A DNA stretch of 64,000 nucleotides from an uncultured Bacteroidota bacterium. Its GTDB lineage: Bacteria > Bacteroidota > Bacteroidia > Flavobacteriales > Flavobacteriaceae. Positions 5,460 to 27,340 of the stretch are shown here, piece after piece. The DNA lies in the NCBI GenBank assembly GCA_902598525.1, contig CACKBZ010000003.1, positions 62,001-126,000 on the forward strand, written 5' to 3'. Positions within the stretch are counted from its first letter, which is position 1; each line of letters begins with the position of its first letter. Both the position numbers and the translations under genes were made by a program. Under the pieces are notes generated by a model, which saw nothing but the letters and a program-made list of their open reading frames with translations, was not told where the DNA came from and searched no databases.

Positions 5460-7133
5460 ATGTACAATAAATATAGCAGATTAGTAACAAAGGATGATTC
5501 ACAACCAGCTGCTCAAGCTATGCTTCATGCTATTGGCTTAAATGATGAAGATTTTGATAAACCTTTTATTGGAATTGCAAGTACGGGTTACGAAGGAAAT
5601 CCATGTAATATGCACCTTAATGATTTATCATTAAAAATTAAGGATAGTATTACTGCTTCAAATTATGTTGGATTAATTTTTAATACTATTGGTGTTAGTG
5701 ATGGAATTTCTATGGGAACTTTTGGAATGAGATATTCACTCCCCTCTAGAGATATTATTGCAGATTCAATGGAAACTGTTGTTCAAGCAATGTCATACGA
5801 TGGCTTAATCACTGTTGTTGGATGTGATAAAAATATGCCTGGAGCCTTAATGGCTATGTTAAGGCTTGATAGACCAAGTATTCTAGTTTATGGAGGAACA
5901 ATTGACTCTGGATGTTATAATAATAAAGAGTTGGACGTTGTCTCAGCATTTGAAGCATGGGGAGAGAAAGTTTCTGGAAAAATAGACGAGAGCGAGTATA
6001 AAAATGTAATAAAAAATGCTTGCCCAGGTGCTGGAGCCTGTGGAGGTATGTATACTGCAAATACCATGGCTTCTGCTATTGAAGCCTTAGGCATGTCACT
6101 TCCTTATAACTCATCTAATCCTGCAATAAGTAATGAAAAAATAAATGAATGTAGCGAGATAGGTAAATCAATTAAAAATCTGGTTGAGAATGATATTAAA
6201 CCTTCTGATATTGTTACAAAGAAATCTCTTGAAAATGCTTTAAGATTAGTTACTGTTCTCGGGGGATCAACTAATGCAGTACTTCATTTTCTAGCAATAT
6301 CTAGAGCAGCAAACATAGACTTATCAATTGATTATTTTCAAGAAATAAGTGATTCAACTCCTTATTTAGCAAATCTCAAACCTAGCGGTAAATATCTAAT
6401 GAAAGACCTACATAAAATAGGTGGTGTTCCTTATGTATTAAAGTATATGCTTGAAAATAAAATGCTTCATGGGGATTGCCTTACTGTGACAGGGAATACA
6501 TTAGAAGAAAATTTATCAAAAATTGAGTCTTTTGATACAAGTTCAAATGATCTTATTTTTCCAATTTCAAACCCAATAAAAAATACTGGTCACATTCAGA
6601 TCTTAAAGGGAAATCTAGCTGAAGAGGGTTGTGTTGCAAAAATAACAGGCAAAGAGGGTTTAACATTTTCAGGTCCAGCTAAGGTTTTTAATAGTGAGTT
6701 TGAATGTCTTTCTGCTATTAAGAATTCCGAGGTGTTAAAGGGGGATGTTGTAGTCATAAGGTATGAAGGGCCTAAAGGAGGTCCTGGAATGCCTGAGATG
6801 TTAAAACCTACATCAGCTATAATGGGTGCTGGATTAGGTAAAGAAGTCGCTCTAATTACTGATGGTAGATTCTCTGGAGGAACTCATGGGTTTGTGGTTG
6901 GTCACATTGTACCAGAGGCATTTGAGGGTGGAACAATTGCAATAGTAGAAAATGGAGATATAATTACTATTGATTCAGAAAAAAATAAGATTTTTGTTGA
7001 TATTTCTGATAAAGAAATTATGAGGAGAAAAGAAAAATGGAATCAACCAGATTTAAAAATTAAAAAAGGAATTCTTTATAAATATTTAAAATCAGTTTCT
7101 AATGCATCTAATGGATGTGTAACTGATGAATAA
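5460..7133 (+). CDS. ilvD: Dihydroxy-acid dehydratase
   Basis: IlvD dehydrates 2,3-dihydroxy-isovalerate and 2,3-dihydroxy-3-methylvalerate to the 2-oxo acids, the third common step of valine and isoleucine synthesis, using an Fe-S cluster. Visible family motifs are QPAAQAML at the start, the cluster-binding [13 protein letters not shown] and [15 protein letters not shown] regions, GGSTNAVLH, and [13 protein letters not shown] with [10 protein letters not shown] near the end. I choose the ATG at 5460, giving MYNKYSRL and 557 residues, because Flavobacteriia homologues begin NKYS. An upstream in-frame ATG at 5430 would add the residues [10 protein letters not shown]. It is the first gene of ilvD-ilvB-ilvN-ilvC-ilvA, with 5 nt to ilvB. 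Confidence 0.95.
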
Positions 7134-7138
7134 TTATT

Positions 7139-8833
7139 ATGAAAAATAAAAAAATTAGTGGTGCTGAAGCTGTAATCCATTGTTTATTAAATGAGGGAGT
7201 AGATCTTGTATGGGGATATCCAGGAGGCGCAATAATGCCTGTATACGATGAATTCTATAAATTCCAAGATAAGTTAAAACATGTACTTGCAAGACATGAG
7301 CAAGGTGCTATTCATGCAGCTCAAGGATATGCAAGATCTTCTGGTAGAGTTGGAGTTGCAATTGCAACCTCTGGTCCAGGTGCAACTAATCTTGTTACTG
7401 GTATTGCAGATGCTCAAATAGATTCAACACCAGTTGTTTGTATTACTGGACAAGTACCATCACATCTTTTAGGCTCTGATGCTTTTCAAGAAACTGACAT
7501 TATTGGGATCTCAATGCCCGTTACTAAATGGAATTATCAGATAACTAAACCATCAGAAATACCTGAGATCTTTGCAAAAGCTTTTTACATTGCAAAATCT
7601 GGAAGACCAGGTCCTGTATTGATTGATATAACAAAAGATGCACAATTTGAGTTTTGTGAATATGCTTATAAAAAATGTGACGGAATTAGAAGTTACTTCC
7701 CATATCCTGTGATAAATAATGACTCAGTAGATAGTGCGGTAGCACTTATTAATAAAGCTAAAAAGCCATTTATTGTTTGGGGTCAGGGTGTAATCTTAGG
7801 AAAAGCGGAAGAAGAATTTAAAAATTTTGTTGAAAAAAGTGGAATTCCTGCAGCATGGACAATTCTTGGTTTATCTGCTTTACCAACCTCACACGAATTA
7901 AATGTTGGTATGGTAGGTATGCATGGAAATTATGGTCCAAACATTCTGACAAATAAATGTGATCTTTTAATTGCGATTGGAATGAGATTTGATGATCGTG
8001 TTACAGGTAATCCAAGTACATATGCATCTCAGGCTAAAATTATCCATCTTGAAATTGATCCTGCAGAGGTTGATAAGAATATAAAAGTTGATGTTCCGGT
8101 AATTGGTAACTGTAAGGAATCTCTTAAGATGATTACTGATAAAATTGATAAAAGATCTCACAAAAAATGGATTTCAAAATTTGATGATTTAATGAAAATT
8201 GAGTTTGATAAGGTAATTAAATCTGATTTAAGTCCAAACAAAAAAGGATTAACCATGGGAGAGTCAATTATTGCTATAAATGAGTATACAAAAGGAGATG
8301 CAATAATTGTTACTGATGTTGGACAACATCAGATGGTTGCATGTAGATATGCAAATTTTATCAGATCAAAGAGTAATATTACATCGGGTGGTCTTGGGAC
8401 TATGGGATTTGCTCTACCTGCTGCAATGGGAGCTAAGATGGGGGCTATGGATAGAGAAGTTGTTGCAGTAATTGGTGATGGTGGTTATCAAATGACTATC
8501 CAGGAGCTTGGAACAATTTTCCAACTTCAAATTCCTGTTAAAATTGTCATCTTAAATAATGATTTTCTGGGAATGGTTAGGCAATGGCAACAACTATTTT
8601 TTGACAAAAGGTATGCATCTACAGAAATGATAAATCCTGATTTTGTCGCTATTGCTAAGGGTTACTATATTGATTCTGATAGAGTAGAGAAAAGAAAAGA
8701 TTTAAAATCTGCTGTTAAAAAGATGATTAGTTCAAAAAAACCATATGTTCTTGAAATTTGTGTGGAGAAAGAAGATAATGTATTCCCAATGATTCCCTCT
8801 GGAGCCTCTGTATCAGATATTAGACTTGATTAA
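7139..8833 (+). CDS. ilvB: Acetolactate synthase, large (catalytic) subunit
   Basis: This thiamine-diphosphate enzyme condenses pyruvate with pyruvate or 2-oxobutyrate to form the acetohydroxy acids for valine, leucine and isoleucine. The N-terminal PYR domain contains GYPGGAIMPVYDE and the catalytic glutamate in LARHEQGAIHAA (about residue 53). The central domain follows, and the C-terminal PP domain has the ThDP-Mg motif starting GDGGYQMTIQEL and ending at the NNDFLGMVRQWQ region. The 564-residue length is typical. Only 2 nt separate it from the regulatory subunit gene, so coupled synthesis of the two subunits is likely. Confidence 0.96.
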   Translation: MKNKKISGAEAVIHCLLNEGVDLVWGYPGGAIMPVYDEFYKFQDKLKHVLARHEQGAIHAAQGYARSSGRVGVAIATSGPGATNLVTGIADAQIDSTPVVCITGQVPSHLLGSDAFQETDIIGISMPVTKWNYQITKPSEIPEIFAKAFYIAKSGRPGPVLIDITKDAQFEFCEYAYKKCDGIRSYFPYPVINNDSVDSAVALINKAKKPFIVWGQGVILGKAEEEFKNFVEKSGIPAAWTILGLSALPTSHELNVGMVGMHGNYGPNILTNKCDLLIAIGMRFDDRVTGNPSTYASQAKIIHLEIDPAEVDKNIKVDVPVIGNCKESLKMITDKIDKRSHKKWISKFDDLMKIEFDKVIKSDLSPNKKGLTMGESIIAINEYTKGDAIIVTDVGQHQMVACRYANFIRSKSNITSGGLGTMGFALPAAMGAKMGAMDREVVAVIGDGGYQMTIQELGTIFQLQIPVKIVILNNDFLGMVRQWQQLFFDKRYASTEMINPDFVAIAKGYYIDSDRVEKRKDLKSAVKKMISSKKPYVLEICVEKEDNVFPMIPSGASVSDIRLD

Positions 8834-24594: not shown

Positions 24595-25020
24595 TTGATT
24601 GATAAAAAATTAAAGAAATTTATTCTCAAGGAGGCAAATGATAGATGTAGCGGTACACTTGTTTCTACACTAGGTATTAAGTTTACAGATGTTGGTGAAA
24701 CCTTTCTGGTTGCAGAAATGAAGGTTACCCCTAAACTTCATCAACCAGCTGGTGTACTTCACGGTGGTGCGACTGCTGCATTAGCAGAAACTGTTGGTAG
24801 CTCTGCTGCTGCTATTTTTTCAAAAAAAGATAATCAAATGTTAAGAGGAGTTGAATTATCTATTAATCATGTAAGAGGCATCAGTGAGGGAATTGTAATT
24901 GCTAAAGCTGAGCCAATCCATATGGGTAGAACAATGCAACTTTGGAAAATATCCATTAAAAATAAAGATGGAAAGGATATTTCATTTGCAAAACTAACTA
25001 CGTTAACAATTAATAAGTAA
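24595..25020 (+). CDS. Hotdog-fold thioesterase, MenI/YdiI-like
   Basis: The protein resembles E. coli YdiI (MenI), which hydrolyses 1,4-dihydroxy-2-naphthoyl-CoA to DHNA in menaquinone synthesis. The match includes the PaaI-type core HQPAGVLHGGATAALAETVG (about residues 49-68), whose glutamate is the catalytic residue in YdiI, and the SEGIVIAKAEPIHMGRTMQLW stretch. The 141-residue length fits. The start is TTG at 24595, since no ATG lies near and the frame opens right after the dnaK stop with a 3-nt gap. The next gene encodes a MenA-like prenyltransferase that would use DHNA, which supports the menaquinone role. A broader acyl-CoA thioesterase remains possible. Confidence 0.82.
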   Translation: MIDKKLKKFILKEANDRCSGTLVSTLGIKFTDVGETFLVAEMKVTPKLHQPAGVLHGGATAALAETVGSSAAAIFSKKDNQMLRGVELSINHVRGISEGIVIAKAEPIHMGRTMQLWKISIKNKDGKDISFAKLTTLTINK

Positions 25021-25058
25021 AACTTAAAAAAAAACTTTCATATTAAATTGTCAAAATG

Positions 25059-25066
25059 TAAATTTG
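25059..25066 (+). promoter_or_regulatory. Possible -7 box for the PAS-prenyltransferase gene
   Basis: TAAATTTG fits TAnnTTTG and lies 19 nt before the ATG at 25086, inside the 65-nt gap after the thioesterase gene. A partial TTTC is seen near the expected upstream position, but no TTTG. It suggests the downstream pair may have its own promoter besides read-through. Confidence 0.4.
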
Positions 25067-25085
25067 GCTCTTTAAAAATAGCTAT

Positions 25086-26438
25086 ATGAAAAGTGTAATA
25101 ATATGTGATATGGAGGGTTTAATCACAAACATGAATGATGGTGCTGTAAAAATGTTCGGTTATCCTTCCAAAGAGTTAGTTGGCATCAAAAGAGTATCAA
25201 TTTTTTCTCCTGGAGAAATAGTCCTTCAAAATGTTCTTGGTTGGTTAAAGGATGCAAACCAAACAGGTGAGCATATAACTAAAACTAATTTTATTAGAAA
25301 AGATGGTTCAACATTTGCAGCAAAGATTAAAATAACTCCAAACTTTGGTAATGGAAAGAATAATCCTCAAACAGGATACTGCGGTATTACTGAGTTAATT
25401 GATGAAGAAGTTAATATACCAATTAGTTTTGTTACCAAAATAATAAAAGGTGTTGCTATTACTAGAGTTGGTTTTGCTTCAGCCTCATTATTTCCTGTAT
25501 TTGCTATTGGTTGTTATTATGCGGGAATTGGAGACAATTTATTCAGTCCTTTATCACTTGCTCTAACCACTTTTGGTATTTTATTTTTTCATTTATTTTC
25601 AAACTTATATAATGATTATTTTGATGTTAAGCATGGAACAGATGAAGCTAATACAGAATATTTTAATGCTGGAATGGATTCAACAATTCTCCAAGGTGCA
25701 CAATTATCTGGAGGTAGTAGGGCAGTAGAACTTGGTTTAATAACACTAAATGGTACAAGAAGTCTTGCTAATATTATGTTCATACTAGGTTTATTTACTG
25801 CTGCTGGTATATTGTATACAAGTTATCTAAATACTGGTACAACATCTAATGCATATTATGCAGCAATAATTGCATTAATCGGAGTGCTTGTTGGATATTT
25901 TTATACAGCAAAACCAGTCAGGCTTTCTTCTAGATATGGGTTGGGAGAACTTTCAATCTTTCTTTCATTCGGACCATTATTAACTTTAGGTACTGGATTT
26001 GCTATTGCAAATGAAACAATTCAATTATTTTCAACTGAATTTTATAATCTTATCCTACTTGGTGTTCCAATTGGACTATTAACAACCAATATTCTTTTTA
26101 TTAATCAATATCCAGATTATTCATCAGATAAAAAAGTTGGTAAGAATCATTTAGTTGTTTTGTTGGGTAAGAGACTCTCAAGGTGGATATATGCTATTAA
26201 CCTTGCCGTTACTGTAGGTTCCCTTTATTATATATCAGAAAATGTTGTAAATAATACCCAAGCATCATTATTTCTTTACATACTAATACCTGTATCTATG
26301 ATTTACTCCTATTTTCTTATTACTGGATTATTCAAATACTACAATGAAAGATCACTAATCAAGTATAATATTCATACCATATATTTTCATATGCTATTTT
26401 CATTTATATATATGATTATTTTAGCTAATTTTCAATAG
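25086..26438 (+). CDS. PAS domain fused to a MenA-like (UbiA-family) prenyltransferase
   Basis: Two parts are visible. Residues 1 to about 110 form a PAS domain: VIICDMEGLITNMNDGAVKM, FGYPSKELVG, FIRKDGSTFAAKIKITP and GYCGITEL. From about 118 to 450 follows a polytopic UbiA-family prenyltransferase with the first aspartate motif NDYFD at residues 176-180, YTAKPVRLSSRYGLGELSIF near 273-292 and a second aspartate motif DYSSDKKVGK starting near 344. The GLGEL and NDYFD context resembles MenA, which attaches the polyprenyl tail to DHNA. No histidine kinase or output domain is attached, so the PAS unit may sense a signal that adjusts quinone synthesis; that is inference. The MenI-like gene lies directly upstream, and the next gene overlaps the stop by 1 nt. 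Confidence 0.85.
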   Translation: MKSVIICDMEGLITNMNDGAVKMFGYPSKELVGIKRVSIFSPGEIVLQNVLGWLKDANQTGEHITKTNFIRKDGSTFAAKIKITPNFGNGKNNPQTGYCGITELIDEEVNIPISFVTKIIKGVAITRVGFASASLFPVFAIGCYYAGIGDNLFSPLSLALTTFGILFFHLFSNLYNDYFDVKHGTDEANTEYFNAGMDSTILQGAQLSGGSRAVELGLITLNGTRSLANIMFILGLFTAAGILYTSYLNTGTTSNAYYAAIIALIGVLVGYFYTAKPVRLSSRYGLGELSIFLSFGPLLTLGTGFAIANETIQLFSTEFYNLILLGVPIGLLTTNILFINQYPDYSSDKKVGKNHLVVLLGKRLSRWIYAINLAVTVGSLYYISENVVNNTQASLFLYILIPVSMIYSYFLITGLFKYYNERSLIKYNIHTIYFHMLFSFIYMIILANFQ

Positions 26439-27340
26439 TGTTTTTGTGGGATAAGTCATATAACTTAAAAAACTTTTGGTACTATATTTTAGGATCATTT
26501 ATAATTATTCTATTTAGTACGTTTGGTCAAATTCCATTAATGTTTTATTTGCCATCTGAGATACCTAGTCCAGATTCAAACCCAATGGATATTTTAAAGG
26601 GAATACCATCTAACCTTAGACTTTTCTTATTACTTATTAGTTTTGCAATTACCGTCCCTGGTATATGGTTAACAGTAACAAAACTTCATGATCTTCCTTT
26701 TATTTCAGTTATAACTGGTAGAAAAAAAATCGATTTTGAAAGAATTTTATACTCTTTTATGATATGGGGTACTGCTATTTCCTCCCTCGTGTTCTTAGAT
26801 TATTCTTTAAACCCAGATGATTATCAAGTTAACTTTAAGATAAAGGAATTTATTATTTTATTTATAATTGCTATTTCACTTATCCCTATTCAAATTAGTG
26901 TTGAAGAGATTGTATTTAGAGGATATTTGATGCAAGGCTTTGGTAATTGGTTTAACAGTAGATTTATGGCTCTATTCCTTTCATCTACTGTATTTGGATT
27001 ACTGCATTTTTCAAATCCTGAAATTGATGCTTTAGGAAATAAATTTATAGTTCAGTATATCACTGCAGGATTTATACTAGGTATAATCGCCTTAATGGAT
27101 GATGGTCTTGAGTTATCTCTTGGTCTACATGCTGCTCAAAATCTAATAGCTGTTCTTATTTTGACTGCTGATTGGACTGTTCTTCAAACAGAGTCTATTT
27201 TAAAATATACAGCTGATCCTGAAATAAGGACAGTTGATTTGTTAATTTCCCTATCACTTTGTTTAATTGTTCTAATTGTTTTTGCAAGAAAATACTCTTG
27301 GACTAATTGGAAAGAAAAACTATTTTCTAAAATTAGATAA
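26438..27340 (+). CDS. CPBP-family (CAAX/Abi) intramembrane metalloprotease
   Basis: This is a polytopic membrane protein with the three conserved elements of the CPBP glutamic protease family: the EEIVFRGYLMQGF motif (EExxxR, about residue 153), the GLLHFSNP motif with its histidine, and the late GLHAAQN motif. Family members cleave or process membrane or prenylated proteins, though most bacterial substrates are unknown. It starts at GTG 26438, sharing the G of the upstream TAG stop, which indicates translational coupling with the PAS-prenyltransferase. Two hydrophobic segments precede the catalytic region. A link to quinone synthesis is suggested only by position. Its 3' end overlaps the convergent GNAT gene by 21 nt. 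Confidence 0.85.
   Translation: MFLWDKSYNLKNFWYYILGSFIIILFSTFGQIPLMFYLPSEIPSPDSNPMDILKGIPSNLRLFLLLISFAITVPGIWLTVTKLHDLPFISVITGRKKIDFERILYSFMIWGTAISSLVFLDYSLNPDDYQVNFKIKEFIILFIIAISLIPIQISVEEIVFRGYLMQGFGNWFNSRFMALFLSSTVFGLLHFSNPEIDALGNKFIVQYITAGFILGIIALMDDGLELSLGLHAAQNLIAVLILTADWTVLQTESILKYTADPEIRTVDLLISLSLCLIVLIVFARKYSWTNWKEKLFSKIR

Follow-up and report, generated by a model that had tools for sequence, protein, structure and literature searches.

A PAS domain joined to a predicted MenA-type prenyltransferase in Bacteroidota that mostly lack the recognised quinone-ring pathways

UBIAD1 prenylates a ring that is obtained from food and is a working model for the salvage of such rings. Among UbiA enzymes, MenA is marked by the spacing rule DxxDxxxxxD, and the UbiA groups of marine Flavobacteria are given as MenA, EboC-like, GGGP-type and haem O synthase proteins, with no PAS-UbiA protein listed (PMC9235831). 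Porphyromonas pasteri carries menA and ubiE without menF, menD, menC, menH, menE and menB and grows on DHNA, according to the sections of PMC9704088 that were consulted. In Lactococcus, feedback by DHNA is described as acting on MenF and MenD (PMC12421875, excerpt). Our literature search found no published fusion of a PAS domain with a quinone-type prenyltransferase.

The window, that is, the whole stretch of 64,000 nucleotides that was analysed, comes from a genome that is 79% complete and comprises 1.17 Mb in 23 contigs. Genomes, loci and families within the Flavobacteriales are labelled G, L and f, respectively; the genus is that of the window's genome, and a carrier is a genome with the PAS-UbiA fusion. 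The features of the window concerned are the following.

24595..25020, + strand: MenI-like hot-dog thioesterase with a TTG start (4HBT and TIGR00369 over cut-off)
25086..26438, + strand: PAS-UbiA fusion gene, 450 aa, a PAS domain joined in frame to a UbiA-family prenyltransferase
25086..25397, + strand: PAS domain, residues 1-104 (Pfam match 3-92; PAS_9 over cut-off, PAS fold in the model)
25446..26435, + strand: UbiA-family prenyltransferase part, residues 121-450 (Pfam match 137-405; UbiA over cut-off, UBIAD1 fold match)
25611..25643, + strand: first Asp motif NDYFDVKHGTD, residues 176-186, with MenA-type spacing (42/42 fusions)
25938..25949, + strand: GLGE, residues 285-288 (42/42 fusions)
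26112..26129, + strand: second Asp motif PDYSSD, residues 343-348 (PDxxxD in 42/42 fusions)
26438..27340, + strand: CPBP (Rce1-like) intramembrane protease, overlapping the fusion gene by one base

The original prediction had placed its feature at 24595-26438, a span that includes the fusion but also takes in the thioesterase reading frame (24595-25020); the fusion itself occupies 25086-26438. Its central claim, a PAS domain fused to a MenA-type prenyltransferase, was borne out, in that both Pfam models score over their cut-offs (PAS_9 on residues 3-92 with 33.9 bits versus 27, UbiA on residues 137-405 with 70.7 bits versus 34.2) and both Asp motifs are intact, with NDYFD at residues 176-180 and the second pair of aspartates at D344 and D348. 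GLGEL is found at residues 285-289, and a short linker separates the PAS domain from the UbiA-family domain. The motifs NDxxDx5D, PDxxxD and GLGE are each kept in all 42 aligned fusions, and the AlphaFold2 model of the fusion, built on this 42-sequence alignment, has a mean pLDDT of 85.

The fusion is real and not an assembly artefact. It is a single frame in 85 of the 87 loci examined (seven genome stretches and 80 named records, some genes being reached twice), and its presence in all 25 genus genomes, in further families of the Flavobacteriales and in records of Marinoscillum type excludes the possibility, foreseen from the start, that two separate genes had been joined by an assembly error. 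Both broken frames, L025 and L082, are, judged by length, one and the same contig of G018, in which the fusion copy has internal stops and CtaB is interrupted too; in this two-contig genome the stops in the two genes are perhaps sequencing indels.

A protein search of 60 relatives recovered the full-length fusion in 25/25 genus genomes (68-92% identity, the window's own copy not counted) and in two f6 genomes (55%). A profile search of 216 genomes, drawn evenly across the order and each at least 75% complete, yielded 17 carriers, all of them with genomes of 1.2-2.0 Mb, which represent four families and 10 of the 71 genera. Scanning species genomes with PAS-derived patterns gave 119 relatives, and the 80 records kept from these bear Bacteroidota titles throughout, several of them Marinoscillum or Flammeovirgaceae; the AG- and SCGC names among them presumably denote many surface-ocean single-cell genomes, and some titles read MAG. 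The Marinoscillum and Flammeovirgaceae rows are nested among Flavobacteriales rows in the tree, and this suggests that the gene may have been transferred between orders, with the root inside the fusion clade left open. Viral spread was considered too, and a single scan of viral contigs gave no relative. Two fusion genes were seen on different contigs of one bin both in record NAT270 (L117 and L118) and in genome G266, reflecting either a second copy or a mixed bin. In L037 (G006), the thioesterase and the intact fusion gene are separated by a second, broken PAS stretch (6785-7024, 59% identity).

Judged by Asp-motif spacing, tree and fold, the window's fusion is a predicted MenA-type enzyme belonging to a distinct, long-branched subfamily on the MenA/UBIAD1 side. 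The DxxDxxxxxD spacing was observed in 42/42 fusions and 9/9 MenA rows and in none of 27 other UbiA rows, and the short spacing in 4/4 MqnP rows and 0/42 fusions. In a tree of 60 rows (24 fusions, 9 MenA of relatives, 13 CtaB, 4 MqnP and 10 of another UbiA) the 24 fusions form one clade (support 100/99) beside the nine stand-alone MenA and apart from CtaB, MqnP and the other UbiA, on a branch to MenA that is long (2.35) and flagged; of the loci L144-L173, 16 of 30 passed the tree filter and the other 14 were classed by best BLAST match. The best fold match of the prenyltransferase part is UBIAD1 (Z 24.8 over 272 residues, 17% identity), archaeal UbiA proteins being matched as well. MenA models match all 42 aligned fusions, and chlorophyll synthase models match them weakly. 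The window protein stays below the cut-offs of TIGR00751 (53 bits versus 102.15) and NF004751 (67.1 versus 264), the former model being passed by the MenA of the Men-positive relative G025 with 264.5 bits. The fusion enzyme is probably active.

No stand-alone MenA was found in carriers by UbiA search and classification of the fetched loci, and the other MenA that was sought in the window's own genome was met nowhere in the genus. The combination of a stand-alone MenA with a dead active site in the fusion was looked for and not found. The classification took in nearly all other UbiA matches, with seven weaker matches in carriers left out. Among the 65 UbiA frames in the fetched loci, MenA-type spacing together with MenA as nearest relative occurred only in the non-carriers G025 and G028; the remaining frames comprise 59 with short spacing and 4 with neither motif, and four weak-match loci gave no frame. 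The other UbiA matches in the genus resemble CtaB. In the window's genome a UbiA passing the CtaB model stands before COX3, from which it follows that a quinone is probably needed. Yet another UbiA, of about 286-327 aa, occurs in both carriers and non-carriers (L190-L203), where a maf-like gene or mevalonate genes adjoin it in a conserved setting; no match to it was obtained in the window's genus.

MenB over cut-off was found in none of 58 carriers (0/25 in the genus and 0/33 further distinct carriers, G270 and G271 being left out as duplicates of G146 and G080 with identical match coordinates), and MenD over cut-off in none of 17 (0/15 genus, 0/2 f6). MqnC, counted by E < 1e-90 and not by the cut-off of 428.1 bits because most true-looking matches just miss the latter, is missing from 15/15 genus and 2/2 f6 genomes and present in 6 of the 33 further carriers, all of them f11. 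Thus 42 of the 48 carriers tested for both hold neither MenB nor MqnC. All 12 non-carrier relatives tested hold MenD, MenB or MqnC; the Fisher value for carriers versus non-carriers ignores shared ancestry and involves a chosen set of non-carriers, and was not relied on. With genus genomes 54-95% complete, the lack of a marker from any one of them carries little weight, but incompleteness does not account for a pathway that all of them lack. In the genus the frames with weak MenB matches are all 629-806 aa long and those with weak MenD matches 567-569 aa long; we read these as FadB-type and acetolactate-synthase proteins, respectively. An ordinary MenA in an ordinary Men pathway was rejected on these counts, the same searches being positive in Men-positive relatives, and a futalosine pathway in the genus was rejected likewise. 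The idea that the PAS domain tunes an ordinary menaquinone pathway is not supported in that form, since MenD and MenB, which lead to DHNA-CoA for MenI, are absent, as is MqnC in the genus.

What the genus keeps is the end of menaquinone synthesis without its start, namely the thioesterase, the fusion and, in 8 of 15 genomes, UbiE over cut-off, which was also found in 2/2 f6 genomes and 8/9 non-carriers. In L140 (G000) and L141 (G022) the ubiE gene stands at the end of an apparent trp operon, read as trpE to trpA. Homogentisate was discarded as a general source of the ring, HPPD over cut-off being present in 1/16 genus genomes and 0/19 named-record genomes; families f6, f11 and f15 are exempt from this, with HPPD in 16/16 tested carriers, and it is found in 8/11 non-carriers too.

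Families f11 and f15 hold both states of the older route. MqnC and the fusion occur together in G080, G142, G165, G180, G193 and G203 of f11, and MqnP is present in all of these save G142. The fusion occurs without MqnC in G095, G137 and G146, which are of one genus, and in G127, of the genus of G080; in these four no MqnP was seen and the single strong other UbiA is CtaB. In f15, G096 has the fusion without MqnC and G050 has MqnC without the fusion. From these few genomes it looks like the fusion was gained first and the old route lost later. MqnP is kept in five of the six f11 carriers with MqnC and was not seen in the four without it, as if the fusion had taken over. In the f11 carriers that keep futalosine genes the role of the fusion must be extra or redundant, which would fit a non-quinone role too.

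The thioesterase and DnaK genes lie upstream of the fusion and the CPBP protease gene downstream. The thioesterase matches 4HBT with 61.2 bits (cut-off 20.6) and is 52.6% identical to the men-operon thioesterase of G025, 47.8-48.1% to that of G039 and 43.3% to a gene of G047. The men operon runs thioesterase, menF-like, menD in both G025 and G039, followed in G039 by menB and menA; in the window it is reduced to the thioesterase directly 5' of the fusion. The earlier description of the preceding gene as MenI-like is supported by this identity of 48-53% to the gene heading the men operon in two Men-positive relatives. Neither curated MenI model was passed by the window's protein (92.5 versus a cut-off of 185, and 84.2 versus 226), and the men-operon thioesterases of G025 and G039 also score below these cut-offs. 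In the Men-positive relative G028 no such thioesterase was found within 16 kb around the men genes. Of 80 loci, 44 have the thioesterase close to the fusion and 36 do not, so that it is doubtful as an obligate partner. In the Marinoscillum record L104 the fusion is immediately followed, on the opposite strand, by a related 4HBT thioesterase gene (7600-8010, 34% identity).

The CPBP Rce1-like protein (57.5 bits versus a Pfam cut-off of 22.4) was rejected as an obligate partner of the fusion, standing beside it in only 59 of 80 loci. The protease had also been proposed to act on the enzyme, but its absence from the neighbourhood in the other 21 makes such action unlikely as a general rule. In L126, L128, L129, L132, L133, L137 and L139, which belong to another group than the window's, the gene after the fusion encodes a pterin-4a-carbinolamine dehydratase, as a Pfam match showed for one of them.

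The PAS domain is matched by TIGR00229 in the window protein (33 bits versus 22.9), and its fold matches those of 3lyx (CPS_1291 PAS, Z 17.2), Aer (15.4) and NifL (15.0). Residues C7, Q48, N49, W53 and Y98 are invariant in the 42 fusions and C99 is kept in 41, while residue 63 varies between Y, H, F, S and N. Helix 43-60 of the window protein contains no His or Cys, hence neither a FixL-type haem ligand nor a LOV-type Cys, the ligand residues of those PAS families, is evident. Two PAS-derived peptides served to find the 80 named loci, which biases any conservation count that includes them; conservation was recounted in 24 sequences from whole-genome searches with the 16 peptide positions left out, L214 (G096) standing outside this set with its broken frame. 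Over 168 distant pairs, mean identity is 61.1% in the PAS domain, 51.4% in the whole enzyme part and 57.5% in the enzyme core, the PAS value exceeding that of the whole enzyme part in 168/168 pairs and that of the core in 118. By this measure of sequence identity the PAS domain and the catalytic core are under about equal constraint, which we find unusual for a sensor. The fold matches include structures of AhR PAS in complex with flat aromatic ligands, and naphthoquinones and AhR are linked as a topic in published papers. It is possible that the putative sensor recognises the ring.

The explanation we put first, with belief and doubt close to balanced, is a PAS-gated MenA-type enzyme which, where no known ring pathway is present, would act on an imported naphthoate ring. 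The membrane prenyltransferase with its N-terminal PAS sensor would join a dihydroxynaphthoate-like ring to an isoprenyl chain, and the prenylated product would then be methylated to menaquinone by UbiE. DHNA or a close relative would be taken up from other organisms, and the carriers would be quinone-ring auxotrophs that keep the downstream steps, for which the DHNA-dependent Porphyromonas is a precedent. The PAS domain may be situated in the cytosol beside the active-site face, where it would bind a small ligand or redox cofactor, candidates being the ring itself, the quinol pool or a flavin, and gate the enzyme. Such gating could stand in for the DHNA feedback which in Lactococcus acts at MenF and MenD, missing here. 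A MenI-like thioesterase beside the fusion makes little sense, however, if free DHNA is imported, and the scores below the MenA cut-offs, the long flagged branch and the 7/15 genus genomes with UbiE not over cut-off count against this explanation as well.

The thioesterase would find a place in a full, undescribed quinone pathway, an explanation that we consider rather unlikely. Unknown genes would lead to a DHNA-CoA-like aromatic thioester, the thioesterase would free the acid, the PAS-UbiA protein would prenylate it and UbiE would methylate the product. The position of the thioesterase, which in the genus directly precedes the fusion and in 44 of 80 loci is close to it, L104 with its reversed order and opposite strand included, speaks for this, as does the absence of both markers from 42/48 carriers in several families and, by record titles, two orders. 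A 2026 survey remarks that in many lineages no quinone pathway is recognised, and suggests that some quinones are still to be discovered (PMC13386864). On the other hand, no candidate ring-making gene was found, HPPD being missing in 15/16 genus and 19/19 named-record genomes, and in 36/80 loci the fusion has no thioesterase close by. If correct, this rather unlikely explanation would give marine Bacteroidota with small genomes a quinone route that is neither Men nor futalosine, with PAS-UbiA as its marker enzyme and control through the PAS domain, and with UbiE and, where kept, the thioesterase as its other visible steps; the gene would have moved between families and across orders, the older route then being lost in several families.

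A non-respiratory role, in which PAS-UbiA prenylates another acceptor, for instance a light- or antioxidant-related lipid, and the carriers import finished quinones, is distinctly improbable. The five f11 carriers with MqnC, MqnP and the fusion are in its favour, since the fusion is dispensable there for futalosine menaquinone, and the long branch, the sub-cut-off MenA scores and the weak matches to chlorophyll synthase models are consistent with it. The MenA-type motif spacing and the placement on the MenA side argue against it; the genus would moreover be left without any quinone prenyltransferase, and some other cause would have to be sought for the fact that carriers repeatedly lack the known routes. 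It is very improbable that carriers possess one of the known pathways in a form that escapes detection through divergence or poor binning, for although genus genomes are incomplete and most carriers outside the genus hold crotonase-type frames of about 255-290 aa that reach up to 139 bits with the MenB model (cut-off 342.7), the same sub-cut-off frames occur in the non-carriers G058 (141.9 bits) and G025, the latter with a true MenB too, the genus MenB matches are confined to the long frames described above, and three markers that are positive in relatives fail together.

That a sensor and a quinone-type prenyltransferase form one protein suggests that quinone synthesis is regulated directly, at the level of the enzyme. 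The fusion marks a set of ocean bacteria without a recognised quinone-ring route, though genes for haem O synthase and for a subunit of cytochrome oxidase are retained in the window's genome. If, as in the explanation we put first, the ring is imported, neighbouring organisms would supply a respiratory cofactor, and this might help to explain why such groups are difficult to cultivate; the alternative to dependence on neighbours is that carriers hold an unknown ring pathway.

Compared with known systems, the carriers resemble the DHNA-dependent Porphyromonas in being Bacteroidota that lack menF, menD, menC, menH, menE and menB and keep the last steps, but Porphyromonas is host-associated and an ordinary menA is described for it in the consulted sections of PMC9704088, whereas the ocean carriers hold a distinct PAS-fused subfamily. 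MenA and the fusion share the UbiA fold, DxxDx5D and the second Asp motif and form neighbouring clades; the fusion differs in its N-terminal PAS domain, in scoring below the curated MenA cut-offs, in having GGSR in place of the GPKR or GPAR of the two MenA compared, and in its setting, the Men pathway being absent from carriers. MqnP of the futalosine route is a UbiA-family protein like the fusion, and five f11 carriers hold both, but it forms a separate clade with short Asp spacing. UBIAD1, the animal MK-4 prenyltransferase, has a fold like that of the fusion but is eukaryotic and without PAS. The sensors NifL, Aer and MmoS share the PAS fold with the fusion (Z 14.5-15.4), and, unlike in these, the PAS domain of the fusion is joined to a biosynthetic membrane enzyme.
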